Shown here one piece after another: positions 34,694 through 51,546 of a stretch of DNA of 64,000 nucleotides (its first letter is position 1; each line of letters starts with the position of its first letter). Position numbers and translations under genes: made by a program. The notes beneath the pieces were generated by a model. It made no database searches and had not been told where the DNA came from. It was given only the letters and a program-made list of their open reading frames with translations. The stretch spans positions 62,001 through 126,000 of the forward strand of contig JAGATP010000015.1 of NCBI GenBank assembly GCA_017621155.1, given 5' to 3'. Origin of the DNA: Clostridia bacterium. Lineage in GTDB: Bacteria > Bacillota > Clostridia > Christensenellales > Borkfalkiaceae.

Positions 34694-34710
34694 AGCGTCT
34701 TGCCACAATC

Positions 34711-34737
34711 AAAAAGCGCCCCTCAAAGGGGCGCTTT
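34711..34737. terminator. Bidirectional terminator, end of module copy 1
   Basis: AAAAGCGCCCCT / AGGGGCGCTTT with a 3-base loop. It serves mazF on plus and the small membrane gene on minus. A near copy closes the second module at 40499-40527. Confidence 0.88.
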
Positions 34738-34751
34738 CTGCGAAAAGAAGC

Positions 34752-35141
34752 TTATTCTTTTTCCTGTTTCATGCAAGAGCCGACGATGCCTGCGACAATC
34801 GACAGCAAGAAGAAGACGACTGCGACGATAAAGATGGCGTCCAAGCCCTTGACTCCCGTATCGACGAGAATATCCATGCGGTAGTTCACTTCGAGGACGA
34901 GGAAATGATAGAGCGCGAACTGATAGCAAACGTACGAAACTGCCGTGACGAACGTGTTATTCAGGAACGCTCCGACAAAGAAGACGGCGATTCCGACGAG
35001 GAGTCCGACGACGACGAGCGGCGTGAAATACATGCTGTCCATTGCGAGGTAGATAATCAGGGTGATCAGGGCGAGGACGACGCTTGCCAATCCGACGTAA
35101 AAGCCCTTATCCTTTTTTTGCAACATTTCTTTGATATTCAT
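34752..35141 (-). CDS. Small four-helix membrane protein, GH3 partner, copy 1
   Basis: 129 residues from ATG 35141 after GGAGG. Four hydrophobic helices are clear: FYVGLASVVLALITLIIYLA, VVVGLLVGIAVFFVGA, FALYHFLVLEV (partly polar) and a last one before SCMKQEKE. A conserved internal motif is YRMDILVDTG. The paralogue at 40539-40943 ends in the same SCMKQEKE. No known family is recognised. It follows the GH3 gene by 12 bp in both modules, which suggests complex formation. Confidence 0.75.
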   Translation of the reverse strand: MNIKEMLQKKDKGFYVGLASVVLALITLIIYLAMDSMYFTPLVVVGLLVGIAVFFVGAFLNNTFVTAVSYVCYQFALYHFLVLEVNYRMDILVDTGVKGLDAIFIVAVVFFLLSIVAGIVGSCMKQEKE

Positions 35142-35153
35142 ACTCAAACCTCC

Positions 35154-38100
35154 TTAAATGGATTCCTTCTTTTTGAAGGAGGAAACTGCCAAGAGCGCCG
35201 CGCTGCCGAGGGCAAGCACACCGAAGAGGACGTCGATGGCATAGACTGCAATCTGCCATGCGGGCGTAATCTCAACAACTCTGTCTGCGGAAGAAATTCC
35301 GTTTACGGCAGTCGTGTTGACGTAGACGTAGAGGAATCTGTGGCAGGATTCACGCACATTCGCAAGGAGCTTGGAATCGTTCTGCGCCCAATCGACGATC
35401 TTGGAAACAAGCCAATCGCCCGAGGAGAGCCAGGTATCGTTGCCCGCTTCCACACCGATGGAAACGTCCATCCAGTTGCGGTTCGCCATGACGGCATCCG
35501 TCAGCGTGACGCCGACAAATCCCCATTCATTGCGAAGGACGTTGGTCAAAAGTCCCTTATGCGCACCTGCCCAACGGCAACCGATTCGGTTGAAGGAAGT
35601 CATGGCGGCATTCGCGCCTCCCTCTTCAACGGCGTACTGGAAGCCCTTGAGGTAAATTTCGCGGAAGGCTTGCTCTCTGTTAAAGGTTGCAACTGCCTGA
35701 CGATAGGTTTCCTGATCGTTCATGGCAAAATGTTTGATGTAGACGCAGAGTCCCTTTTCCCTTGCACCCGATACTTCGGCGGCTGCCATCTTGCCGGACA
35801 GGAAGCCGTCCTCGGAGTAGTATTCGAAGTTTCTGCCCGAATAGGGAGTTCTGTGAATGTTCATGGCAGGGCCGTACCAACCGGTGATTCTCGCGCCGTC
35901 CACGCGGAGGGCGTCTTCACCCATGGAAAGTCCCACGTTGTGCAAAATTTCGACGTTGAATGTTGCAGCCATGACAGGCTCGGAGGTATAAGCGATCGTG
36001 GAAGATCCCGCATACTGTCCCTTAATGCCCTGCGGCCCGTCTGCCTGAACGGTTGCGGGCAAGCTGATCGAATTGATTGCCTGCGTGCCATAGCCCGAAT
36101 GTCCGACGATTTCAGCCATCTCTTCCAAGGTCAGCTGATTGAGAAGGGGTTCCCAAAGCTCGTCGTCAAAATCTCTTCCGCGCATCATGACGATGTTGTA
36201 AGAAGTCTCTTTCGAGCCGTATACGATGTCGGAAGTAGAAGTGTCCGCCGTGTAGTTGAACTGAAGATCCTGAATCATCTCCGGCGTCGCCTTCAACGTA
36301 TCGTAAGAGGTGGGATACGTTCCCTGCCAATCCTGTCTCGAAAGGTAGGTGACGAGCTTGCCGTAGTAGTTCAGATCGGCTTCTTCGAACTGATTGGTGA
36401 TCTTATAGCCGACGTTCGCATCCGAATAAGCATACGCCGTGGCATCCGTCTCCCGAACAACCGTGCTGTAAGCGTTATCCGCATTTCCCTCGGCGTCCAT
36501 TCCGTCCGCCTTCGTCTTACCCTTTGCCGCCAGAATGTTGTTGAGGGCGTCGTGCGAGGAATCGCCGATGGCAAGATAATACGTTCCGTCTTCGAGAATG
36601 TACGTCTTGTTGACGACTTCGTCATAGACGGCAAGCTCTTTTCTGTCCACGGTCACTTGGATCGTCTCGCTCTTGCCCGCTGCAATCTCGTTCGTCTTGC
36701 CGAAGCCGACGAGCTGAACTGCCGCCTTCTCGATCTTGTTCTGTCTGTCAAATTCGGTATAAGGCTGTTGTCCGTAGACCTGAACGACGTCCTTTCCTGC
36801 GACAGAGCCCGTATTTTTGACGGTGACGGTCAGCGTAAAGGTATCGTCCTGTCTGTTGTACTCGACCTTATCGAGCTTTTGCTCGAAGTCGGTGTAGGAA
36901 AGACCATAGCCGAAGGCATAGTTGACTTCGTCGGTATAATTCCAGCCATTGCCCTGCGAGCAGTAGACGCCCGCGCTTCCGTTCGCGTTGCCCTGTCCGA
37001 GCACGCTGTCCTCATACCTCGTCTCATAGTACTTATAGCCGACGTAAATGCTCTCCTGCTCCACGAGATAGTGAATGGCATAGCGGACTTTAGTCTTGTC
37101 TCCGGGCGTTCCGTCGATTTCCACACCGTCGATCGTTCCCGTGACGGGATCGGCATTTGCCCAATCGTAACCGCCGAAGTTCTGCATGGCGGGAGAAGAA
37201 AGGGAGCTTGCGGAATAGGTATCTACGAATTTACCCGAAGGGTTGATGTCGCCGCAGAGAATTTTGGCGACGGAGTTCATGCCGTACTGACCGGGGCCGC
37301 CGATCCAAAGGCAAGCGTCGATCTTGTACTCGGAATCGTTCAGCCAATCGAGCGCCATCGCATTGGAAGAGTTGATGAGCACGACGATTTTGCTAAAATC
37401 CTGCGAAGCGACGTATTTGAGAAGTTCCTTTTCCTGCTCCTGCAATTCGAAATAGTGCACGCCGTCCGTAAACTCGTTGAAGGCAAGGTCTGCGCCCTCT
37501 CCGCCGCTTCTGCCGATGGTGACGATGGCGACGTCCTTATAGCCTTCGTAGGAGACGCCCGAATTCGCGACCTCGTTCGCGGGGATTTCCGCGATTCTCG
37601 TCGCATTGCCGACGTCCTTAAACTCCGTCCACATTCCCGCGGTAGAGCGGTTTAATTTTGCCTCTTTGAGTGCGGCGACCTTTCCCGAATACCAATCGAG
37701 CATTTGCTCGTTGACCTTGAAGCCCGCCTCCTTGAGCGCCTTTGCCATGGTTGCGGCGTTCGCCGTATCCACCTGACCGGAACCCGTACCGCCGTAAATG
37801 ATGTCGGCAGACGATCTGCCGAAGCACGTGACGGATGCTCCCTTTGTAAGGGGAAGCGCCTTGTCCTTGTTCTCCACGAGGACAGAGCCCTCGCCCTGAA
37901 TCTGCTCGCAGAGCGCCTTCTGCCATGCGGTGAGCTTGTCGCCGTCGAGCGTGCCGTCCGCCTTCAAAAAGTCGCTCTTGAAGTACTCTGTGTCCTCATC
38001 GACGTTTTCGTCGTGAATGACTTTGCTGGACGAAATATTGAGCTCTTTGTTGATCATGCTCGCATACGAGTTGGCAAAGTACGTTCCCGTCAGCGCAAGC

Positions 38101-38159
38101 GTCAACAGAAACGAAAAGACGCCCGTCATGATTGCCCACGGTTTTTTGTTGAGTGCCAT
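35154..38159 (-). CDS. Membrane-anchored, circularly permuted GH3 glycosidase, copy 1
   Basis: 1001 residues, GGAGG before ATG 38159. An N-terminal membrane helix (about 9-30) is followed by the GH3 C-terminal domain (GEGSVLVENKDKALPL, about 80) and a fibronectin-III-like part (YGFGLSYTDFEQ, about 410-500). The catalytic (beta/alpha)8 domain comes last (about 665-930), and a C-terminal helix (976-998) ends the protein. This order is the reverse of ordinary GH3 enzymes and is known for some ruminal beta-glucosidases. VQADGPQG, IKHFAMNDQETYR and LTDAVM with the likely nucleophile Asp888 are present. It probably hydrolyses beta-glucosides or similar outside the membrane. It belongs to a duplicated sensing module. 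Confidence 0.88.
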   Translation of the reverse strand: MALNKKPWAIMTGVFSFLLTLALTGTYFANSYASMINKELNISSSKVIHDENVDEDTEYFKSDFLKADGTLDGDKLTAWQKALCEQIQGEGSVLVENKDKALPLTKGASVTCFGRSSADIIYGGTGSGQVDTANAATMAKALKEAGFKVNEQMLDWYSGKVAALKEAKLNRSTAGMWTEFKDVGNATRIAEIPANEVANSGVSYEGYKDVAIVTIGRSGGEGADLAFNEFTDGVHYFELQEQEKELLKYVASQDFSKIVVLINSSNAMALDWLNDSEYKIDACLWIGGPGQYGMNSVAKILCGDINPSGKFVDTYSASSLSSPAMQNFGGYDWANADPVTGTIDGVEIDGTPGDKTKVRYAIHYLVEQESIYVGYKYYETRYEDSVLGQGNANGSAGVYCSQGNGWNYTDEVNYAFGYGLSYTDFEQKLDKVEYNRQDDTFTLTVTVKNTGSVAGKDVVQVYGQQPYTEFDRQNKIEKAAVQLVGFGKTNEIAAGKSETIQVTVDRKELAVYDEVVNKTYILEDGTYYLAIGDSSHDALNNILAAKGKTKADGMDAEGNADNAYSTVVRETDATAYAYSDANVGYKITNQFEEADLNYYGKLVTYLSRQDWQGTYPTSYDTLKATPEMIQDLQFNYTADTSTSDIVYGSKETSYNIVMMRGRDFDDELWEPLLNQLTLEEMAEIVGHSGYGTQAINSISLPATVQADGPQGIKGQYAGSSTIAYTSEPVMAATFNVEILHNVGLSMGEDALRVDGARITGWYGPAMNIHRTPYSGRNFEYYSEDGFLSGKMAAAEVSGAREKGLCVYIKHFAMNDQETYRQAVATFNREQAFREIYLKGFQYAVEEGGANAAMTSFNRIGCRWAGAHKGLLTNVLRNEWGFVGVTLTDAVMANRNWMDVSIGVEAGNDTWLSSGDWLVSKIVDWAQNDSKLLANVRESCHRFLYVYVNTTAVNGISSADRVVEITPAWQIAVYAIDVLFGVLALGSAALLAVSSFKKKESI

Positions 38160-38293
38160 GTTTTACCTCCATTTTCGGGGATACTTCCCCCTTAATCCGA
38201 GAAAGAGTATAGCACGTTTTGCCGTTTTTTGTGTTTTTTTTGTGAAACCGGTCAAAATATTTGAGAATCTTGTAAGTTTCCTGCGATAAGGAA

Positions 38294-38321
38294 GGGGCGC
38301 ATACCAAACGATATGCGCCCC
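38294..38321 (-). terminator. Hairpin after kinase gene, copy 1
   Basis: GGGGCGCATA / TATGCGCCCC forms a 10-bp stem with an 8-base loop, 40 bp past the kinase stop. The following TTCCTT is a poor T tract, so it may be a weak terminator or leader element of the GH3 gene. Confidence 0.5.
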
Positions 38322-38362
38322 GATCAGGTTAAAAACGATAGAGAATGCAGTTCAAGCGTCCC

Positions 38363-39634
38363 TCAAAGCGGAATGAGAATGCTGAGGGTATAGCGCTCGT
38401 CCGCGGTGTCGATCACCATGCTTCCGTGGTATTTTTCGGCAATGTAACGAATGCTCTTGCTGCCGAAACCGTGATACTTCGAATCTCCCTTTGTAACGGG
38501 CAAGCCGTCTACGATTTCGGGCGGACAAGCGCAGTAATTTTCGACGATAATCTGGCAAAATTCCTGCTTTTTGCCGATGTGCAGGCTGACGATCCGCTTG
38601 TCCTCGCTCTCTTTGAGCGCACTCTGAATGGCGTTGTCGAGGGCATTGCCGATCAACGAATAAAGATCTGCCGAATCCATCTTTTCGATGGCCTCCGGAT
38701 CGACGAGATAGCTGAGCCGCACGCCGTTCGCCTCGCAGAGAATGAGCTTTTGGGACAGCACGACGTCTACGGCGCTGTTGCCCGTGCGGGCGATGCTGTC
38801 GTAAACCTTAATCGAATCCTCCATTTCCCGAAAGAAGGAATCGTGCTTTTTGTCGTCCTCCCCTTCCCGATATTCCCGAATGTGATACCTTAAGTCGTGG
38901 CACTTCATGTTGACGAGATCAATCGTCTCCTTCATGCGGTCGAAATTGTTTTTCTCCGCCTCGAGGAGCTGCTCGATGATGCGGTTTTGCTCGCTGATCT
39001 TGCTCTGCTGAATGGCGCCGAACTGCACCACCAGAATGAGAATGCAGCTGATTCCCGTGAACAGATAAGAGAGCGCCTTGTCGTCCATCCACCCGAAAGA
39101 TTCTATGGCGTTGCGGGAATAGACGATGAACACGGTGACGACTGCAAGAACCAGGCAAATCGTGTTCTTCAACAGAATTTCGCCGTTCTTTTCAAAACGA
39201 CGGGCAAAGCAGAAGTAACAGACGAGGTAAATAAGGGCAAAGACGATTGCCGTAACCGCATAATACAAAAAACTTCCCCTCTCCAAGTTCAAAGCTATGG
39301 CGCAAAGCCATCCCGCATTGTAAGCGAGGTTTTGCACGGCGTAAGCGCCGATGGCGATGAAAAGGCTGCCCTTGGCGGAAATTTTCAGGCAGAACAGGAG
39401 CAAGAGATAGGATTCCGCAAAGATACAGAGAACCCGTATGAATTTATGCCCCATCGTCGGGTGAAACCAGCAGATGACGAGATACAGCGCAATGCCAAAG
39501 CACATGCGAAGCGCCGCATGACTCCTCTTTTTCTGTCCGATGACGAAGAGAAGCTCGGCAAGCAAGAGCTGCACGCTGAAAAACATGTGAATAGGGAAGT
39601 TGTGGTAGAGAAAAGCCGCAAATGCCTCCAACAT
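38363..39634 (-). CDS. AgrC-like GHKL sensor histidine kinase, copy 1
   Basis: 423 residues from ATG 39634, which overlaps the regulator stop (TGATG) behind GGGAGGG. About six membrane helices cover residues 1-210. VNMKCHDLRYHIREY is the phosphoacceptor region with His about 245. The GHKL ATPase has LIGNALDNAIQSA (N box) and GFGSKSIRYIAEKY (G box). The family (LytS/AgrC type) phosphorylates LytTR regulators. No AgrB/AgrD peptide genes are nearby, so the signal is unknown. Confidence 0.88.
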   Translation of the reverse strand: MLEAFAAFLYHNFPIHMFFSVQLLLAELLFVIGQKKRSHAALRMCFGIALYLVICWFHPTMGHKFIRVLCIFAESYLLLLFCLKISAKGSLFIAIGAYAVQNLAYNAGWLCAIALNLERGSFLYYAVTAIVFALIYLVCYFCFARRFEKNGEILLKNTICLVLAVVTVFIVYSRNAIESFGWMDDKALSYLFTGISCILILVVQFGAIQQSKISEQNRIIEQLLEAEKNNFDRMKETIDLVNMKCHDLRYHIREYREGEDDKKHDSFFREMEDSIKVYDSIARTGNSAVDVVLSQKLILCEANGVRLSYLVDPEAIEKMDSADLYSLIGNALDNAIQSALKESEDKRIVSLHIGKKQEFCQIIVENYCACPPEIVDGLPVTKGDSKYHGFGSKSIRYIAEKYHGSMVIDTADERYTLSILIPL

Positions 39635-40329
39635 CAGACAATCCCTCCCAAGTGGCGATTTAAACTGTCGAGGAATTCCTTCTTTTTGGAACGGCTGATG
39701 GGCAGTCTCTCCTTTCCCACGACGCAGTCGTTTTCGACAATCGCGACGACGTGGCTCAAGTTGACGATGTAAGAATTGTTGCAGCGACAAAAGCCTTTTC
39801 CGACCTTCTCTTCCGTCGCCTTCAGCGTTGCGTGCACCTTATAGCACCCCGTCGCCGTATGGTAGACGACGTATTGGTTGCTCCCCTCGATGTACAGCAC
39901 GTCTTCCTCCGAGAGAACGCACATTTTACCGTCGGAGACGACGGCAAACGTGCGCATCTCCCGCATTCTGCCGATTGCCTTGTCGAGCTTCAGCTTCAAG
40001 TCAAAGTAAGAGACGGGCTTGACCATAAAATCGAGCGCGTCGACCTCGTAGCCCAAAATCGCATACTGCGCCATGTTGGTGATAAAGATGATCGCGGCAT
40101 AAGAGTCCACCTTGCGGATTTTGCGCGCTGTTTCGATGCCGTCGATTCCCGGCATATCGATGTCGAGCAAAATAATATCCGCAGCTCTCTTGTAATCGCC
40201 GATGTATTCGAGTCCCGAAGTAAAGAGCTCGGCGTCGAGTTTTTTTCCCCGCTCCTGCGCATAGCGGTCTACATAGCTTTTCAGCAGCGCAAGCTGTTTT
40301 TTATCATCGTCTACGATGGCAATTTTCAT
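39634..40329 (-). CDS. LytTR response regulator, copy 1
   Basis: 231 residues. The receiver domain (1-120) has VDDD, phosphoacceptor DIILLDIDMPG, and FITN and KPVSYF with the conserved Lys. The C-terminal LytTR DNA-binding domain (130-231) has YIEGSNQYVVYHT and FCRCNNSYIVNLSHV. It should activate target genes, most simply its own module's GH3 operon. The promoter TTGACA-17-TATAAT lies in the conserved block just upstream. Confidence 0.92.
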   Translation of the reverse strand: MKIAIVDDDKKQLALLKSYVDRYAQERGKKLDAELFTSGLEYIGDYKRAADIILLDIDMPGIDGIETARKIRKVDSYAAIIFITNMAQYAILGYEVDALDFMVKPVSYFDLKLKLDKAIGRMREMRTFAVVSDGKMCVLSEEDVLYIEGSNQYVVYHTATGCYKVHATLKATEEKVGKGFCRCNNSYIVNLSHVVAIVENDCVVGKERLPISRSKKKEFLDSLNRHLGGIV

Positions 40330-40487
40330 TGCACTTCCTCCCTTTCGTCACCATTATAGACAAAACATACGCGTCTGTCAAGGGCAAAAAAGAATTTTAT
40401 TCCCCAAAAAACGGGATTTTCTCCAAAAAAATCGCCCAACCCGGCGATTTTTCGGTATTTCTTCCCGCTATCTGCACGAAAAAAGGC
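40330..40487. repeat. Conserved regulatory block A, upstream of regulator copy 1
   Basis: It matches 46112-46269 with only about eight differences in 158 bp and no gaps; about 85 bp (40371-40455) are identical. On the minus strand it holds the terminator for upstream genes, then TTGACA-17-TATAAT and the ribosome site of the regulator gene. Confidence 0.85.
40425..40453 (-). terminator. Terminator in conserved block A
   Basis: AATCGCC / GGCGATT with a 6-base loop, then T6 on the minus strand, upstream of the regulator promoter. Confidence 0.75.
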
Positions 40488-40498
40488 GATTAAATTAG

Positions 40499-40527
40499 AA
40501 AACGCCCCTTTTGAGGGGCGCTTTCCG
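40499..40527 (-). terminator. Terminator, end of module copy 2
   Basis: GCGCCCCT / AGGGGCGTTTTC stem after the small membrane gene, with the same core as the terminator at 34711. Confidence 0.8.
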
Positions 40528-40538
40528 ATGAAAGGAGC

Positions 40539-40943
40539 TTATTCCTTTTCCTGCTTCATACAGGAGGCAACAAGAGTAACGATGATACAAGCAAGGAACA
40601 AAATGGTCGCGACATAGAAGAGGGCATCGAGAGAGAAGAAACCTTGCCCGGGATCAACCAAAACATCCATCCTCTGCTCTACTTCCAGCACCATGAAGTG
40701 ATAGAAAGCAAACATATAGGAAGCGTAAGAAAGCACGTAAAGGAAATTCAAATTGAACAGCCCAGCTACGGCAAATGCGACGATTCCCAGGATTAACCCT
40801 AAAACAACCAAGCCCGAAAAGAACTTACTGTTCATCGAAATGTAAATGAACATTGTAACGAGAGCGAGCAGCGCACCCGCTGCGCCGACATAAAAGCCGG
40901 AGCGCTTATTTTGTAAAACGTCTTTGAAGTTTTTCGTATTCAT
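40539..40943 (-). CDS. Small four-helix membrane protein, GH3 partner, copy 2
   Basis: 134 residues, paralogue of 34752-35141. It shares the layout and motifs: FYVGAAGALLALVTMFIYIS, FAFYHFMVLEVEQRMDVLVD, and SCMKQEKE at the end. It starts 9 bp after GH3 copy 2. Function unknown, probably in complex with the GH3 protein or the kinase. Confidence 0.75.
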   Translation of the reverse strand: MNTKNFKDVLQNKRSGFYVGAAGALLALVTMFIYISMNSKFFSGLVVLGLILGIVAFAVAGLFNLNFLYVLSYASYMFAFYHFMVLEVEQRMDVLVDPGQGFFSLDALFYVATILFLACIIVTLVASCMKQEKE

Positions 40944-40952
40944 TCTTTTCCC

Positions 40953-43900
40953 TCACTTTGCACTTTTTTCCTTTTTATTTTGTAAGGTCGAAACCACGAA
41001 GAGCACTGCTCCCACAACCGCCAATACGCCGAATACTGCGTCGAACACCCAAACGGTAATCTGCCATGCAGGCGTGATGATTATGATCTTATCGGTAGAG
41101 CCAATGCCGTTCATTACCGAGCTATTGGCAAAAGCGTAAAGATAATGATGACACGATTCGCGCATATTTGCAAGAAGCTTGTTGTCGTTCTGCACCCAAT
41201 CTTTCATCATGGGAACGAAGAAATCGCTGTAAGAGAGCCACATATCGTTGCCCGCTTCCAAACCGATACGCACGTCCATCCAATATCTTTTGCTCATGAC
41301 GGCGTCTGTCAGGACGGCACCGTTAAAGCCCCATTCTTCGCGGAGCACGTTGGTAAGCAAGCCCTTGTGCGCCCCTGCCCAACGGAAACCGATACGGTTG
41401 TACGATGACATGATACCGCTCGTTCCGCCTTCTTCGACGGCATATCTGAACGGTTTCAGATAGATTTCGCGGATCGCCTGTTCACATGCGAAAGTCGCAC
41501 AGGACTGACGGTATGTTTCGAAGTCATTGAGGGCGAAGTGCTTGACAAAGCAGACAAGTCCCATGCTCTCAGCACCTGCGATTTCCGGTGCAGCCATTTT
41601 ACCGGAGAGGAATCCGTCTTCCGAAAAATACTCATAGTTTCTTCCGACATAAGGGGTACGGTGGATATTCACAGCCGGCGCATACCAACCGCTGACGCAT
41701 TTTCCGTCGATACGTAATGCGTCTTCGCCCATTGAAAGACCGATGTCATGCATAATCTCTACGTTGAACGTGGAGGCCATAACGACTTCGGCAGTGTACG
41801 CGATGGCAGACACCTTCGTAGAGTTGCCTACACTTCCCTTAATTCCCTGAGGGCCGTCCTTGTGGCTGGATTCAGGCAGTCCGACGCTGTCTGCCGCGTA
41901 ACCCTTGAAGCCGTCGTTGGCAACCATATTGGCCATCTCTTCAACCGTAAGCTGATCGAGAAGATCTTCCCACAGCGGGTTTTCGTATTCGAGCCCCCTC
42001 ATCATAGCTACCGTGTACTTTTTTTCTGCACCGGTCGTAACTTTTGCGACGGTGTTATCAGCTTTATAGTTGAATTGTAAGTCGTTAATCATCTGCGTCG
42101 TTGCGGTCATGCCGGTATGCGTGGTGGGATAAGTACCCTGCCAATCATTTCTCGACAAATACGTAACCTTTTCGCCGTAATTGTTAAGATCGGCTTTATC
42201 GAACTGGTTCGTGACCTTTACGCCCTTGTTTGCATCGGAATAAGCATACGAAGTAGTATCCGTCGTAGCGACGTCGAAGCGATACGTCTTTTCCGCATCC
42301 CCGTTCTTATCCATGCCGTTGCTCGTGGTGTAGCCCTTTGCGGCGAGAATATTGTTGAGTGCATCGTGCGCATCCGAACCGATTGCCAAATAATACGTAC
42401 CATTTTCGAAGATATACGTCTTGTTGACGTAAGCATCGTATGTTGCAAGCTCTTTGCGGTCTACGGTAACTTTCACCGTTTCCTTTTCGTTGGGTTTCAA
42501 AATCTTCGTCTTGCCAAAACCGACGAGCTGTACGGCTGCTTTTTCAATGTGATTTTGACGGTCGAAATCGGTATATTCGCTCTGACCGTAAACCTGCACG
42601 ACTTCCTTGCCTGCGACCTTACCCGTATTTTCCACTTCCACGCTGAGCGTATACGCATCCTTGTCGGGATCGTACTCCGTTTTTAACAATTTCTGCGTAA
42701 ACGTAGTATACGACAATCCGTAACCGAAGGCGTAATTGACTTCGTCTGTGTAGTTCCACTTGTTGTCTTTCGACATATAGACGCCTGCGTTGCCGTTTGC
42801 GTTGCCTCTGCCGAGCACAGCGTCCTCGTACCTCGTTTCATAGTACTTGTAGCCGACGTAGATACCCTCTTTTTCATCCATATAGTAAACGGAGTAACGT
42901 ACTGTCGTGGAGTCGCCGGGGTTGCCGTCGATCTCTACGCCGCCTACAAAACCCGTCGTTCTGTCGGCATTTGCATACGCATATGCGCCGAAGTTCTTCA
43001 TTGCGGGAGCCGAAAGCGTACTGGACGAATAGGTATCGACAAATCTTCCGGAAGGGTTGAATTCGCCGCAGAGAATTTTTGCCACGCCGTTCAGACCGTA
43101 CTGTCCGGGGCCGCCGATCCAGAGGCACGCGTCGATCTTGTATTCGGGATCGTTGATCCAATCGAGCGCCATCGCGTTGGAAGAGTTAATGAGAACGACG
43201 ATTTTACCGAAGCCGAGACCTGCAACGTATTTTAAAAGCTCTCTCTCTTCATCCTGTATTTCGTAATATCCTTCGCCATCCAAAAACTTTCCTTCGGGCA
43301 GGTCGTTACCTTCGCCGCCGCTTCTGCCGATCGTAACGACCGCCAAATCTTTATAGCCGTCATACGAAACGTCCCATCCTTCTACAACGGATGCCGGAAT
43401 TTCGGCAAGGCGCGTCGCATTGCCTACCTCCTCATACTGAATGAAGAATCCCGGCGTCTTACGGTCTAATTCAGCATCTTTCAGCTTTTGAATTTCGGCG
43501 TTATACTTGTCCATTATCGCTGTATTGACTTTAAACTCCGCTACGTTCGTCAAAGCGGAAGCCAAAGTCGCGGCATTCGCCGTGTCGACTTGTCCCGAAC
43601 CCGTGCCGCCGTAAATCGTATCAACGGAAGAGCGGCCGAACGTAGTAACGCCGATCCCCTTATTTACGGGAAGCGCGCCGTTGTTCTTGACAAGTACGCT
43701 GCCTTCTCCCTGAATCTGTTCGCACAGCTCTTTCTGCCACTTCGATAACTTGTCCTGATCGTCGAAACGACTTTTGTAATACTGTGTATCTTCATTTGAG
43801 TTTTCATCTTTGATTACTTTACTCGGATTAATGTTCAACGCATCGTTGATTGCGCTTGAATATTGATTACCGAAGTAAGTACCGATCATAAGAATGCAAA

Positions 43901-43961
43901 ACAAAAACGAAAATATTCCGGTCAAGATTGACCAAAGCCTTGTTTTTCGAATAATCTTCAT
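40953..43961 (-). CDS. Membrane-anchored, circularly permuted GH3 glycosidase, copy 2
   Basis: 1002 residues, GGAGG before ATG 43961. It has the same architecture as copy 1: N-terminal helix, GH3 C-domain (GEGSVLVKNNGALPVNKG), FnIII-like part (YGFGLSYTTFTQK), TIM-barrel last, and C-terminal helix. HKDGPQG, VKHFALNDFETYR and LTDAVM keep the active-site residues. Copies are similar but far from identical, so they may act on different sugars. Its promoter has TATAAT but no fitting -35, as expected for an activator-dependent gene. Confidence 0.88.
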   Translation of the reverse strand: MKIIRKTRLWSILTGIFSFLFCILMIGTYFGNQYSSAINDALNINPSKVIKDENSNEDTQYYKSRFDDQDKLSKWQKELCEQIQGEGSVLVKNNGALPVNKGIGVTTFGRSSVDTIYGGTGSGQVDTANAATLASALTNVAEFKVNTAIMDKYNAEIQKLKDAELDRKTPGFFIQYEEVGNATRLAEIPASVVEGWDVSYDGYKDLAVVTIGRSGGEGNDLPEGKFLDGEGYYEIQDEERELLKYVAGLGFGKIVVLINSSNAMALDWINDPEYKIDACLWIGGPGQYGLNGVAKILCGEFNPSGRFVDTYSSSTLSAPAMKNFGAYAYANADRTTGFVGGVEIDGNPGDSTTVRYSVYYMDEKEGIYVGYKYYETRYEDAVLGRGNANGNAGVYMSKDNKWNYTDEVNYAFGYGLSYTTFTQKLLKTEYDPDKDAYTLSVEVENTGKVAGKEVVQVYGQSEYTDFDRQNHIEKAAVQLVGFGKTKILKPNEKETVKVTVDRKELATYDAYVNKTYIFENGTYYLAIGSDAHDALNNILAAKGYTTSNGMDKNGDAEKTYRFDVATTDTTSYAYSDANKGVKVTNQFDKADLNNYGEKVTYLSRNDWQGTYPTTHTGMTATTQMINDLQFNYKADNTVAKVTTGAEKKYTVAMMRGLEYENPLWEDLLDQLTVEEMANMVANDGFKGYAADSVGLPESSHKDGPQGIKGSVGNSTKVSAIAYTAEVVMASTFNVEIMHDIGLSMGEDALRIDGKCVSGWYAPAVNIHRTPYVGRNYEYFSEDGFLSGKMAAPEIAGAESMGLVCFVKHFALNDFETYRQSCATFACEQAIREIYLKPFRYAVEEGGTSGIMSSYNRIGFRWAGAHKGLLTNVLREEWGFNGAVLTDAVMSKRYWMDVRIGLEAGNDMWLSYSDFFVPMMKDWVQNDNKLLANMRESCHHYLYAFANSSVMNGIGSTDKIIIITPAWQITVWVFDAVFGVLAVVGAVLFVVSTLQNKKEKSAK

Positions 43962-44083
43962 TATTCAACCTCCATTATAATTCCACGAAAACGGTTTCCC
44001 CGTTTCGCTCGCTCATTATAACATAAGTCTGCTTTTTGCGTTTATCTTTCGAGAGATTCGTCGGTTTTCCCGAGAATTTCGTC

Positions 44084-44110
44084 AAAAAAAGGGACGGCAT
44101 TTGCCGTCCC
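44084..44110 (-). terminator. Terminator after kinase copy 2
   Basis: GGGACGGCA / TGCCGTCCC stem with minimal loop, then T7 on the minus strand, 17 bp after the kinase stop. The GH3 gene therefore has its own promoter. Confidence 0.9.
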
Positions 44111-44126
44111 CTAGGAACCTTTTACA

Positions 44127-45419
44127 CTACTCTACCGCCATGGGCAACAGAATACTCAGCGTAAACATATGATCTTTGTAATCGATGATCAAATTTCCGT
44201 TGTATTTCTCTACGATATAGCGTATCGAACGCATACCGAAGCCATGTACGTTCTTATCTTTGGAAGAAAGGGGCAAGCCGTCCTTCATTGCGGGCTTTTC
44301 GGCACAGTAATTCGTGATCAGAATCTGCCCCATTTGACCGTGACTTCTGACGGATACGCTGATGATTCGCTTATCCTTTTCCTCATGCTCTACACTCTGT
44401 ATCGCGTTGTCAAGCGCGTTGCCGAACAGCGAACTGATGTCGGAAGGGTTCATGTCCTTGATAACCGAAGGGTCGATGATACAGGAAACGATGATCTCGT
44501 TCGCATTACAGTAAATGAGTTTTTCCGATAACAAGCCGTTCAAAGCGCTGTTGCCCGTATCGGGCGTATTGTCGTACAAATCGATGGAATTTGCAATCTC
44601 TTTGAAGAACTCGGCGTTGTCCGCCGTGCTTGTCTTGCGGTATTCGTCCAAATGATAACGCAAATCATGAAACTTCATGTTGATGATGTCGATCGTATCC
44701 TGACGAATATTATGTCGATTCTCTTCTGCGGCAAGTAACTGTTCGATTGTGCGCTTTTCGTTATACGTTCTGCTTTGGCGCAACAAACTGAATTGGATGA
44801 GCAGCACGAGCGTTATACATAACGTGGAAAAGATGAGCAGTAGCTCATAATCGGTCAAAATACCTAAGCTACGCAACAACGATCGGCTACACGTAACGAA
44901 AAAGGTTATAATTGCAAGCAACAGAGAAGTCGAATTGTTGATATAAATTTCGTTATTTTTATTAAAACGGCGTATGATCAGGAAATAACTCACCGTATAC
45001 ACGAGAACAAAGACGGCAAAACCGACGAGCATATAGGCGATAAGATCGTTCTCCTGATCGAGACCGATGATAGAAACAGCCAAATATCCGACGTTGTATG
45101 CAAAATGTTGAATCGCATAGGAAACAAGTGCAATGAACAAGCCGCATTTAGGCGAGGTGTCCAAGACGAAGTAGAGAAACAACACGGATACACCGAATTG
45201 AAAGATCACGCGAAAGAGGATAAACCAGCCGTTGGAAAAAAACGGCAAAGTCCAACAGAGGAGAGCGTAGAAGAATAATCCGAAAATCAGCCGCAAAAGA
45301 GGGTGACTGCGTTTGGGTTGACCGATGACAAACAACATTTCCACAATCATAAGCTCGGTGGAAAAAGACATATGCACCCGCCATATCACATTCATGAAAT
45401 AATTGATTCCTTCGGGCAT
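44127..45419 (-). CDS. AgrC-like GHKL sensor histidine kinase, copy 2
   Basis: 430 residues from ATG 45419 behind GGGAGG. About six membrane helices come first, then MKFHDLRYHLDEY with the phosphoacceptor His, LFGNALDNAIQSV (N box) and GFGMRSIRYIVEKYN (G box). It is two bases downstream of the regulator gene. Paralogue of 38363-39634. Confidence 0.88.
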   Translation of the reverse strand: MPEGINYFMNVIWRVHMSFSTELMIVEMLFVIGQPKRSHPLLRLIFGLFFYALLCWTLPFFSNGWFILFRVIFQFGVSVLFLYFVLDTSPKCGLFIALVSYAIQHFAYNVGYLAVSIIGLDQENDLIAYMLVGFAVFVLVYTVSYFLIIRRFNKNNEIYINNSTSLLLAIITFFVTCSRSLLRSLGILTDYELLLIFSTLCITLVLLIQFSLLRQSRTYNEKRTIEQLLAAEENRHNIRQDTIDIINMKFHDLRYHLDEYRKTSTADNAEFFKEIANSIDLYDNTPDTGNSALNGLLSEKLIYCNANEIIVSCIIDPSVIKDMNPSDISSLFGNALDNAIQSVEHEEKDKRIISVSVRSHGQMGQILITNYCAEKPAMKDGLPLSSKDKNVHGFGMRSIRYIVEKYNGNLIIDYKDHMFTLSILLPMAVE

Positions 45420-45421
45420 TT

Positions 45422-46111
45422 TCAGAGTCCTCCCAAATACCGGTTTATGTCTTCCATGAATAGCTTTTTGCGTCCCCGCGATATGGGCAATCGCTCGCCG
45501 CACACGACGGCGTCCGTCCCATTGATACAGGTCAAATAGCGCATATTGACGATAAAGGAGTTGTTGCAGCGGGAAAACTCCTTCCCCAAAGTGCTCTCCA
45601 CCGCCTTCAGGGTCTTGTATACCTTGTAGTTTCCACGGAAAGTATGGTAAATGACGTGCTGATTGCTCCCCTCGATGTAAAAGATGTCCCGCTCGTCCAA
45701 CAGGTAAGTAGTCCCGTCCGAGATGACGGAACAGATTTTCTTACGGGGAATGCTCCGAAACGCCTTCTCGAATTTAACCGAGAGATTGAAATAGGACACG
45801 GGCTTGACCATAAAATCGAGCGCATCCACCTCGTAGCCGCAAATGGCATACTGCGCCATGCGCGTGATGAAGATGATCACCGCTTCTGTGTCCGTCCGTC
45901 GAATCTTCCGCGCCGCGTCCATGCCGTTTAAATCGGGCATCTCAATGTCCAGCAAAATGATATCATAATGCGTGTAGTCACTGACAAAATCGATCGAGGA
46001 AGAAAACAGAGCGCATTCCGCTACCTGTCCTATTTCCCGCAAATAGCGCAAAACGTATTCGTTCAGCTGTTCTCGTTGTTTCTTCTCATCGTCCACAATG
46101 GCAATTTTCAT
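45422..46111 (-). CDS. LytTR response regulator, copy 2
   Basis: 229 residues. The receiver has DIILLDIEMPDLNG with the phosphoacceptor Asp, FITRMAQYAICGYEVDALD and KPVSYF, and the LytTR domain has YIEGSNQHVIYHT and FSRCNNSFIVNMRYL. It is paralogous to copy 1, with conserved MAQYAI...GYEVDALDFMVKPVSYF. It is transcribed from the conserved block B. Confidence 0.92.
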   Translation of the reverse strand: MKIAIVDDEKKQREQLNEYVLRYLREIGQVAECALFSSSIDFVSDYTHYDIILLDIEMPDLNGMDAARKIRRTDTEAVIIFITRMAQYAICGYEVDALDFMVKPVSYFNLSVKFEKAFRSIPRKKICSVISDGTTYLLDERDIFYIEGSNQHVIYHTFRGNYKVYKTLKAVESTLGKEFSRCNNSFIVNMRYLTCINGTDAVVCGERLPISRGRKKLFMEDINRYLGGL

Positions 46112-46269
46112 CGAATTTCCTCCCTTTTGTCACCATTATAGACAAAACGTGCGCGTCTGTCAAGGGCAAAAAAGAATTTTATTCCCCAAAAAACGGGATT
46201 TTCTCCAAAAAAATCGCCCAACCCGGCGATTTTTCGGCATTTCTTCCCGCTATCTACACGAAAAAAGGC
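46112..46269. repeat. Conserved regulatory block B, upstream of regulator copy 2
   Basis: Partner of 40330-40487 (see there). On the minus strand it carries the terminator of the ABC operon at 46207-46235, then the promoter TTGACA-17-TATAAT and GGGAGG of the regulator gene. Confidence 0.85.
46207..46235 (-). terminator. Terminator in conserved block B
   Basis: AATCGCC / GGCGATT stem and T tract; it ends the ABC transporter operon. Confidence 0.75.
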
Positions 46270-46312
46270 AGCACGGAAATTTCCATGCCGCCTCTTCGAG
46301 CCTCAAAAGGGC

Positions 46313-48450: not shown

Positions 48451-51400
48451 TCATACCGCGTTGAAGTGAATGGTCGCACGGCTGAGCGGTTCGTTTTCCG
48501 TCCCGATGGCAATCGCATTCCACTGTTCTTCGCTCCCTTTAAAGTACACGTCCTTCAAGGCAGTGCAATCGTCAAACGCAGCGTGGTCGATGCTCGTCAC
48601 GTTCGCGCCGATGGTCACGCTCGTCAAAGAATAACAACGGCAAAACATAATATCCTCTATTTTCGTCAGAGAATCCGGCAAAACCACCGAAACCAACCCG
48701 GATTCCTGAAAAGCATACCGATCGAGCGTTATCAATCCGTTCGGAAGCTCAATGCTCGTCAAGCGAGCGCACCCGCGAAATGCCAGAAGTCCAATCCTCG
48801 TAACGGTGCTCGGAATGGTGACAGAGGATAAATTTTCGCATAGTTCAAACATGCGATCCGCGATATTCCGAAACCCTTCCTTCAGAACGACGGTGGATAG
48901 GCGATTGTTCCATTCGAAAATCCTTTCTTCTAGTGTCTCGACGCCGCCACCGATGACGGCGCTTTGCAAATTGGGACAATCCTTAAAAGCGCCATGGCCT
49001 ATGAATTTCACCTGATCCCCGATGACGACGTCCGTCAAGTCCGCACATCTCTGAAAGGAAAGACCGCCGATTTTCGTCACGCTTCCGTCCAAGGTAAGCT
49101 TCCCTTCAATCTTCCTTCCGCCGATCACCAACGTTCCATACCCATTCAGGAATAAATTATTCTCAATATGATCCATGGCGCACCAATCCGCAAGGCTTCC
49201 CCGATAATCGATATACTCGAAATGATCACTCAGGAACGCGTCCGCCTCAATTCGGACAGACGGATTTTCCAAAACGACCTTTCTCACCGTATTACATAAG
49301 GCAAACGCCTCGGTTCCGATGAACGCCACGCTTTTCGGAAAGATCAATTCCGTCAAGGCTTTGCATTCCCGAAATGCGCCCTTTCCAATGCTCGTCACGC
49401 CGTCGGGAATCGCAACCTGTTGCAATTTCTCGCAGCCTCTGAACGTCTCGTATTCGATGCTCTTTATCCCGCTCGGAAGCTTCACGCTTGTCAGTTCGGA
49501 ACAGTAGTGAAACGCCTGCTGCTCGATGTTGATCACGCTGTCGGGTATGTTGACGCTCTTCAAATTGGAACAATTGGCAAAAGCGTTGTATCCGATGCTC
49601 GTCACGGTTTCGGGGAGAGAAACACCCGTCAAGCCCGAGCAAAAACTAAAAGCATAGCCCGCAATTTTCATGACGCCGTAGGGAACGACAAGCTCCCCTT
49701 CCAGCCTCTTGCCGTTAAAGATCAAACCGCTCCCTCCGCTTTGATAGATAATCAGCTTTGCATCGAGGCGATCGATTTCACACCATGCGGCGAGATCGCC
49801 GCGGAAGTCGATGGTTTCCAGCTTCGTGCCGAGGAAAGCGTCCGTTCCGATCTCCCGCACCTTTTTCCCGAGAACGACGCTCTTTAAGGAACAGTACTCA
49901 AACGCCGATTCTCCGATCTTGACGATGTTGTCCCCGATCACGACGCTCTTTACATTTCTCATCGGAAACGCAAAGCCGCCGATGCTCGTCACGGGCAAGC
50001 CGCAGTACGTCGCGGGAATCACGACGTTTGTATCCGATCCCTCATAGCGTTCCACCCTATAAGCCGTCCCGTCTTGGCTGAGTTCAAAGACAAGTCCCTC
50101 CGTATAGGCGAGCTTGGGGGTCTTCCGCGATTCGACCGCTCCGCAACGGGAACAAGTTCTCCTCTCTTCTCCCTCCGATTGCGAGGTCGCCTCTATCGCA
50201 ACTTCCCATGCGCCGTAACTGTGACCGAGCGCGTCGATATAATCGCTGAAATAGTAGTAGCCGCAGTGCTTGCAGACGTGCTTGGTGCTGCCCACGAAGT
50301 CGCAGACGGGCGGATAGACCTCAAGCTTATAGTCGTGCTCCTTCTTCGGGATTGCCTCGGTATACGTCTCTCCGCAATCGAGACAGGTGTAAAGCTTCGT
50401 TCCCTCCTCGCTGCAAGTCGAATCCTTGACGAGCTTCCCGCCGTCCCACGTATGAGGAAGGGGCGCGAGCGCCTCCGTATACCTCGACTTGCACCTTGTG
50501 CACTCGTAAACCTCTTTCCCCGGCGTAATGCCGTACGGTTCCACCCGCTCGACAAGAACGTAATCGTGACCGAGCGCATCGACGTAGCTGTCGAAGTAAT
50601 AATAGCCGCAATGCTTACAAACGTGCTTGGTGCTACCCACGAAGTCGCAGACGGGCGGATAGACCTCCGCCTTAAATTCGTGCGCTAAGGGCAAAATTTC
50701 CGTATAGACGAGCGAGCAATGCGTACAGGAGTAGACAATTCTTCCCTTCTCCGTACAGGTAGAGGGAACCGTCTCCGAGACGAATTGATGTTCCCCTTCG
50801 GGCAGGATAACGTCTTTCTTCGAACCGCCGCAGCGTTCGCACCGATAGAGGTCGTAGCCGATCGCCGTCTCCGTGAGATCGACGTGCTCGACGAGGACGT
50901 AGTCGTGCCCCAACTCGTCCACGTAGTCGCTGAAATAGTAATAGCCGCAGAGCTTACAGGTGTGCTTGGTACTGCCTCCGAAGTCGCAGACGGGCGGATA
51001 GACCGCAGACTCAAATTCGTGCGCGGGAGAAAGCACCTCCCGCTCGGAATGCCCGCAGACGGTACAGGTATGCTCCGCAAGTCCTCCCGTCGTACAGTTC
51101 GGGACGAGAAGGACTTTCGTCTCGAAGGTGTGCGGGACGAGCGGAATCTCCTCGGTGTAAGATTGTTCGCACCGAGAACAGGTATAGGTAATCACGCCCG
51201 CCTCCGTGCAGGTTGCGGGAAGGACGCTCTCTCCATAGTCGTGCCCGAGCGCCTCCATCTCGTTTTCGATGACGGTGTCTCCGCAGACGGAGCAGACCTT
51301 TTGGGTGTATCCCCCTTCTTCGCAGGAAGGAAGGATGACCGTCTCCGCATAGGAATGCCCCTTTGCGGGAATTTCCTCGGTATATTGCTCTTCACAGCCG

Positions 51401-51546
51401 TCGCAGACGTAGACGAGCTCCCCTTTTTCCGTACAGGTAGCTTCTTTGCCGACAGAAGAAGTATAGCTATGTTCGTGGCTGCAAGCCGCAAGGCTTACCA
51501 ACAGCCCCAACGAACAAAACAGTGCCCAAAAAATTTTTCTTCTCAT
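48451..51546 (-). CDS. Large BspA-like LRR lipoprotein with Cys-rich repeats
   Basis: 1031 residues, ATG 51546 after AGGAG. A clear lipoprotein signal ends in LVSLAAC. About eight Cys-rich units of 35-45 residues (residues about 25-430) follow, with patterns such as ATCTEKGELVYVC-x2-C-x3-YTEEIP and TKHVCKHCGYYYFxxYVDALGHDY. LRR_5 repeats then run to the end (about 460-1020), with AFxxCxxLxSVxIPxxV. The Cys units look like small zinc-ribbon-like modules, each with two CxxC. Three units are near-identical at DNA level. It is a surface adhesin or binding protein; no partner is known. Own promoter at 51567-51595. Confidence 0.86.
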   Translation of the reverse strand: MRRKIFWALFCSLGLLVSLAACSHEHSYTSSVGKEATCTEKGELVYVCDGCEEQYTEEIPAKGHSYAETVILPSCEEGGYTQKVCSVCGDTVIENEMEALGHDYGESVLPATCTEAGVITYTCSRCEQSYTEEIPLVPHTFETKVLLVPNCTTGGLAEHTCTVCGHSEREVLSPAHEFESAVYPPVCDFGGSTKHTCKLCGYYYFSDYVDELGHDYVLVEHVDLTETAIGYDLYRCERCGGSKKDVILPEGEHQFVSETVPSTCTEKGRIVYSCTHCSLVYTEILPLAHEFKAEVYPPVCDFVGSTKHVCKHCGYYYFDSYVDALGHDYVLVERVEPYGITPGKEVYECTRCKSRYTEALAPLPHTWDGGKLVKDSTCSEEGTKLYTCLDCGETYTEAIPKKEHDYKLEVYPPVCDFVGSTKHVCKHCGYYYFSDYIDALGHSYGAWEVAIEATSQSEGEERRTCSRCGAVESRKTPKLAYTEGLVFELSQDGTAYRVERYEGSDTNVVIPATYCGLPVTSIGGFAFPMRNVKSVVIGDNIVKIGESAFEYCSLKSVVLGKKVREIGTDAFLGTKLETIDFRGDLAAWCEIDRLDAKLIIYQSGGSGLIFNGKRLEGELVVPYGVMKIAGYAFSFCSGLTGVSLPETVTSIGYNAFANCSNLKSVNIPDSVINIEQQAFHYCSELTSVKLPSGIKSIEYETFRGCEKLQQVAIPDGVTSIGKGAFRECKALTELIFPKSVAFIGTEAFALCNTVRKVVLENPSVRIEADAFLSDHFEYIDYRGSLADWCAMDHIENNLFLNGYGTLVIGGRKIEGKLTLDGSVTKIGGLSFQRCADLTDVVIGDQVKFIGHGAFKDCPNLQSAVIGGGVETLEERIFEWNNRLSTVVLKEGFRNIADRMFELCENLSSVTIPSTVTRIGLLAFRGCARLTSIELPNGLITLDRYAFQESGLVSVVLPDSLTKIEDIMFCRCYSLTSVTIGANVTSIDHAAFDDCTALKDVYFKGSEEQWNAIAIGTENEPLSRATIHFNAV

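Follow-up and report, generated by a model that had tools for sequence, protein, structure and literature searches.

Why should the noncoding DNA in front of two regulator genes be nearly identical when the proteins encoded behind it are not? The window, the whole 64,000-nucleotide stretch of Clostridia bacterium DNA that was analyzed, contains two four-gene modules, and the block in question is the intergenic leader of their LytTR response-regulator genes. A sequence-only reading of this DNA had put forward gene conversion, a recent second event, or strong constraint such as a shared operator that would let both regulators cross-talk.

Two diverged modules in a genome rich in such modules

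The two modules lie head to tail, each in the order receiver-LytTR regulator (RR), GHKL kinase (HK), glycoside hydrolase family 3 enzyme (GH3) and small hydrophobic protein (Table 1). Receiver, LytTR and GHKL ATPase domains are all present in the regulator and kinase pair. Since the permease and the mazF-like gene that flank the array adjoin in both genus relatives, with a short gap only, either the array was inserted in this genome or the relatives have lost it. Third-position GC is lower in module 1 (0.56-0.67) than in module 2 (0.66-0.71), a gap compatible with separate histories. The 3' ends of the small-protein genes with their terminators (40488-40560 and 34694-34770) resemble each other more than the gene interiors do. 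Adjoining the array, at 48451-51546, is a gene for a large protein with many repeats containing C-x-x-C and leucine-rich (BspA-like) repeats, identified from its translation only.

Table 1. Position, strand and properties of the features discussed, numbered from the first letter of the window.
Feature	Position	Strand	Remarks
RR1, receiver + LytTR response regulator	45422..46111	-	PF00072, PF04397
HK1, GHKL-type sensor kinase	44127..45503	-	PF14501; listed ORF, true start probably inside
GH3-1, glycoside hydrolase family 3, hydrophobic N terminus	40953..43961	-	PF01915 before PF00933 (swapped domain order), PF14310
Small hydrophobic protein 1	40539..40943	-	no Pfam match; G104 orthologue
RR2, receiver + LytTR response regulator	39634..40329	-	Pfam domains
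HK2, GHKL-type sensor kinase	38363..39790	-	listed ORF, true start probably inside
GH3-2, glycoside hydrolase family 3	35154..38159	-	
Small hydrophobic protein 2	34752..35147	-	
Two-module array, mazF-like gene to permease	34694..46312	.	not at that site in either genus relative
Block copy 1, RR1 leader	46112..46269	-	continuous with permease terminator upstream; 150/158 vs copy 2
Block copy 2, RR2 leader	40330..40487	-	starts with orphan terminator tail, ~40477-40487
Sigma-70 promoter of RR1-HK1, TTGACA-17-TATAAT	46135..46163	-	12/12 consensus
Sigma-70 promoter of RR2-HK2, TTGACA-17-TATAAT	40353..40381	-	12/12 consensus
Hairpin AAAAATCGCC-GGGTTG-GGCGATTTTT + T run, upstream of promoter	40427..40452 (copy 1: 46209-46234)	-	fold z -3.8
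Permease operon terminator	46262..46297	-	-29 kcal/mol, z -5.5, 16-bp stem
Predicted LytTR operator of GH3-1, ATTCTCGGG-12-TCTCTCGAA	44048..44077	-	extended -10 at 44015-44020, no good -35
Predicted LytTR operator of GH3-2, ATTCTCAAA-12-TTTCACAAA	38239..38268	-	-10 at 38206-38211, no good -35

The coding regions are far apart. Identity between copies at the nucleotide and amino acid levels is 63% and 56% for the regulators, 53% and 44% for the kinases, 66% and 65% for the GH3 enzymes, and 58% and 52% for the small proteins. Third bases at shared fourfold-degenerate residues match in 39% of cases for GH3, 47% for HK, 53% for RR (n = 34) and 5 of 20 for the small protein, where about 27-37% would be expected by chance; these sites of the adjacent coding DNA are close to saturation. 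The description of the adjacent proteins as clearly diverged is thus borne out (44-65% amino acid identity), and so is the claim that noncoding DNA is here more conserved than coding DNA: the coding DNA is not equally similar, at 53-66% nucleotide identity compared with 95% for the block.

The pair belongs to a large set. The 2.05-Mb genome (regulator loci such as L145-L174) encodes 48 LytTR domains and at least 31 GH3 domains, and most of the former are in regulator-kinase-GH3 modules; a kinase adjoins nearly all of the regulators that were fetched, and a GH3 gene is near most of them. The two genus relatives have 3 and 0 LytTR domains. Most of 60 relatives have 0 or 1 LytTR and 0 to 3 GH3 domains, with exceptions such as G006 (9 and 18) and G029 (10 and 18). 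Our literature search, incomplete in coverage, returned no description of regulator-kinase-GH3 modules. Dedicated two-component systems located beside glycoside hydrolase genes resemble them in that regulator and sensor adjoin the enzyme that they probably control, but the modules here combine LytTR, GHKL and a GH3 of swapped domain order, and a 2-Mb genome has dozens of them.

Anatomy and distribution of the leader block

The two copies of the block align without gaps and are identical at 150 of 158 positions, with a longest identical run of 86 bp, in agreement with the gapless match of about 95% and about 85 identical bp seen in the sequence-only reading. If the block were as similar as the RR coding DNA (63%), at least 150 matches in 158 would have a probability of 5e-21. 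Downstream, the high identity covers the first 14 nt of the RR gene (ATGAAAATTGCCAT), beyond which it drops to the coding level; its upstream limit is GCCTTTTTTCG. The eight differences comprise seven transitions and one transversion. None falls within the -35, the -10, the Shine-Dalgarno sequence or the hairpin, and six are in the spacer and the leader 3' of the -10.

Read on the minus strand, each block consists of a terminator tail, the hairpin with its T run, an A/T-rich stretch, TTGACA-17-TATAAT, a Shine-Dalgarno sequence and the ATG; several promoters in this analysis were located by consensus alone. The terminator scan assigns the block hairpin to the plus strand, and it is probably a backup terminator. 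At its 5' edge, block copy 1 consists of the 3' arm and T tail of the permease terminator. In copy 2 the corresponding tail is unpaired and follows a complete terminator that belongs to the small-protein gene. Both Rfam matches to RNAI (RF00106), at 29.4 and 28.7 bits, are under the curated threshold of 47 and were rejected.

When the block was looked for elsewhere, as the sequence-only reading had advised, only these two copies were found in the 2.05-Mb genome, a third match of 31 nt being a terminator-like hairpin. Searches of the 397 other family genomes and of phage and plasmid records did not find the block, nor did a search of viral contigs with its 33-nt core. A dispersed repeat or mobile element was rejected on these grounds. 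Weak matches in relatives (L003, L022 and L186-L189) proved to be hairpins or A/T-rich stretches, not copies of the block. Among the approximately 48 module leaders, this pair alone is nearly identical over its whole length. A separate 70-bp stretch is 86% identical between the regulator leaders L145 (upstream of 3450) and L174 (upstream of 4162), and occurs twice in L174.

A related module and the GH3 promoters

Genome G104, from another genus of the family, contains one complete four-gene module. In module trees built from few sequences, its regulator and kinase group with copy 1 with support of 1.00, and its GH3 does so with support of only 0.81; copy 2 falls outside in each case. RR1 is 64% identical in amino acid sequence to the G104 regulator and 56% identical to RR2. 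Because the G104 regulator, kinase and GH3 all join copy 1, either the coding split between copies 1 and 2 predates that between copy 1 and G104, or one of the modules came in from another source. The leaders conflict with this grouping: the G104 regulator leader has in common with the block only the perfect promoter, CTTTTTTGCC and the Shine-Dalgarno sequence, so that the coding regions join copy 1 to G104 whereas the leaders join copy 1 to copy 2. Inherited constraint would predict the reverse, and since the G104 leader retains the core promoter only, despite the coding grouping, the 95% identity of the block is probably not due to it. No second genome with both modules was found among the 398 family genomes.

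The operators described for LytTR regulators are direct repeats of 9 bp separated by 12 bp, located 4-11 bp upstream of the -35 (PMC6193735). With 16 GH3 promoters aligned on the -10, self-identity at a lag of 21 peaks at 0.60 at position -62, compared with 0.38 for the next lag; with the window pair and G104 removed it is 0.56, the next lags being about 0.4. Most of these promoters have no good -35. The G104 operator contains the half-site ATTCTCACA twice, and a search of the window with it returned the GH3-2 site as the best pair. The GH3-1 site (p = 0.10) is not significant alone in this search and rests on its own repeat and position. The idea that the two window operators are the sole good matches to the G104 half-site was rejected, as other good matches exist. 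Other module GH3 promoters (e.g. L160 upstream of 5940 and L158 upstream of 6614) also have direct repeats spaced by 21 bp, whose distance from the -10 is fixed and whose half-sites differ from module to module, a possible regulator-operator code.

A matrix built for the clade scores at best 2.9 in the block, compared with 22.5 and 17.7 at the window GH3 promoters, although these two sites contributed to the matrix and their ranking is therefore not independent. By this matrix, no GH3-type 9-12-9 direct repeat was found in the 158-bp block. The block does have an A-rich repeat at lag 22 (8/11 match), which is weak and of a strength plausible by chance, but may be a LytTR site. Since some other regulator leaders of the genome have a weaker lag-21 signal, autoregulation may occur in other modules. 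Here the LytTR operators probably lie outside the block, as the spaced 9-bp repeats (12-bp spacer) that precede the GH3 genes. In spacing and place the GH3 sites match the direct-repeat operators of AgrA and of Streptococcus mutans HdrR and BrsR (PMC6193735, PMC4227749). The half-site differs (ATTCTCAxA here, ACCxCTTAx in the AgrA and S. mutans systems). In contrast to those systems, in this subclade the site precedes the GH3 target and not clearly the regulator operon, and the partner is a GHKL kinase instead of an LRS membrane inhibitor.

From these sequence features we infer an active block promoter and regulators that bind DNA. Both regulator-kinase pairs would stand behind the same strong, probably constitutive promoter, from which regulator and kinase would be made steadily; the phosphorylated LytTR regulator would then activate its GH3 gene via the 21-bp-spaced direct repeats upstream of the -35-less GH3 promoter. 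The DNA-contact residues of AgrA, R198, N201 and S202 (PMC4227749), correspond to the R, N and S of a conserved FxRCNNS motif in RR1, RR2 and the G104 regulator. As these residues are kept in all three, cross-talk between RR1 and RR2 at the GH3 operators is possible.

Origin of the shared leader

The best explanation is that the RR1 and RR2 coding regions diverged long ago and now lie behind the same ordinary leader. We consider it probable that, of the leaders of two old and diverged regulator copies, one has recently been copied onto the other, so that the same promoter now serves both while the LytTR regulators act at the GH3 genes. We infer a recent copy within this genome because of the block identity, the mismatch with the G104 leader, the absence of the block elsewhere and the 7:1 ratio of transitions to transversions, which itself suggests a recent event. 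The copied tract would cover approximately 172 bp, starting in the permease terminator tail and ending at codon 5 of the regulator. Either ectopic gene conversion or a small duplication followed by partial loss would have produced it in this lineage. Of the two leaders, copy 1 is the more probable donor: the tail forms a paired terminator arm there but is left as an unpaired orphan in copy 2, which suits this direction, although the breakpoint of a tandem duplication would have the same appearance. Two points speak against copying: both edges of the tract coincide with functional borders (the start codon on the right, the terminator on the left), which suits selection, and six of the eight differences fall in the spacer and the leader past the -10. 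The tract is similar to known cases of intragenomic gene conversion or concerted evolution in bacteria in being short, near-identical, sharp-edged and located in diverged tandem paralogues. It differs in that those cases concern a coding or rRNA segment, whereas this one is a regulatory leader. Our literature search found no paper on bacterial promoter conversion. Of the origins offered by the sequence-only reading, conversion or a second event gains from the conflict between the coding trees and the leader, whereas a shared operator loses, there being no GH3-type site in the block (best score 2.9) and no block before the co-orthologous G104 regulator.

A lineage-specific constraint, under which the whole block is a dense regulatory or RNA element coupling both systems through an operator for LytTR or another factor, would fit the sparing of the -35, -10, Shine-Dalgarno sequence and hairpin by the eight differences. 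It would also fit the weak 22-bp-spaced A-rich repeat (AGAAAATCC-13-ATAAAATTC), which sits 10 bp before the -35, in a place reported for other LytTR operons (PMC6193735), and the lag-21 signal in other leaders. We nevertheless think it unlikely: the block is not kept in G104, it scores far below the GH3 sites (themselves part of the matrix), its Rfam matches are under threshold, and the identity extends into an orphan terminator tail that has no obvious role. An assembly artefact is scarcely credible. The draft genome is in 59 contigs, but the copies differ at eight sites and have different flanks, and the longest exact repeat, 86 bp, is short enough for ordinary assembly.

The absence of the array in the genus relatives and the difference in GC between the modules are why we retain one further rival, namely that the whole module with its leader was recently duplicated in tandem and one coding interior was then replaced by that of a divergent module, leaving the old ends. 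The greater likeness of the small-protein 3' tails and terminators relative to the gene interior is in keeping with this, but the tails are identical at only 30 of 43 positions (one ungapped count), far from 95%, and their likeness may reflect constraint on terminator and protein. Replacement would moreover require recombination between coding regions that are 53-66% identical, and we judge it improbable. That regulator-kinase-GH3 modules generally swap coding interiors between conserved ends is more doubtful still; if true, it would amount to a cassette system in which new sensor and enzyme sets are placed behind a working promoter, diversifying carbohydrate sensing.

With recent copying of the leader as the preferred reading, the block clearly illustrates how paralogues can have conserved noncoding DNA that is most likely due to recent copying instead of a shared operator; where conservation is equated with function, this difference is often overlooked. 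The 48 LytTR domains of this genome, together with a readable operator signature, make the specificity of regulators for their operators testable across many paralogues in one organism.
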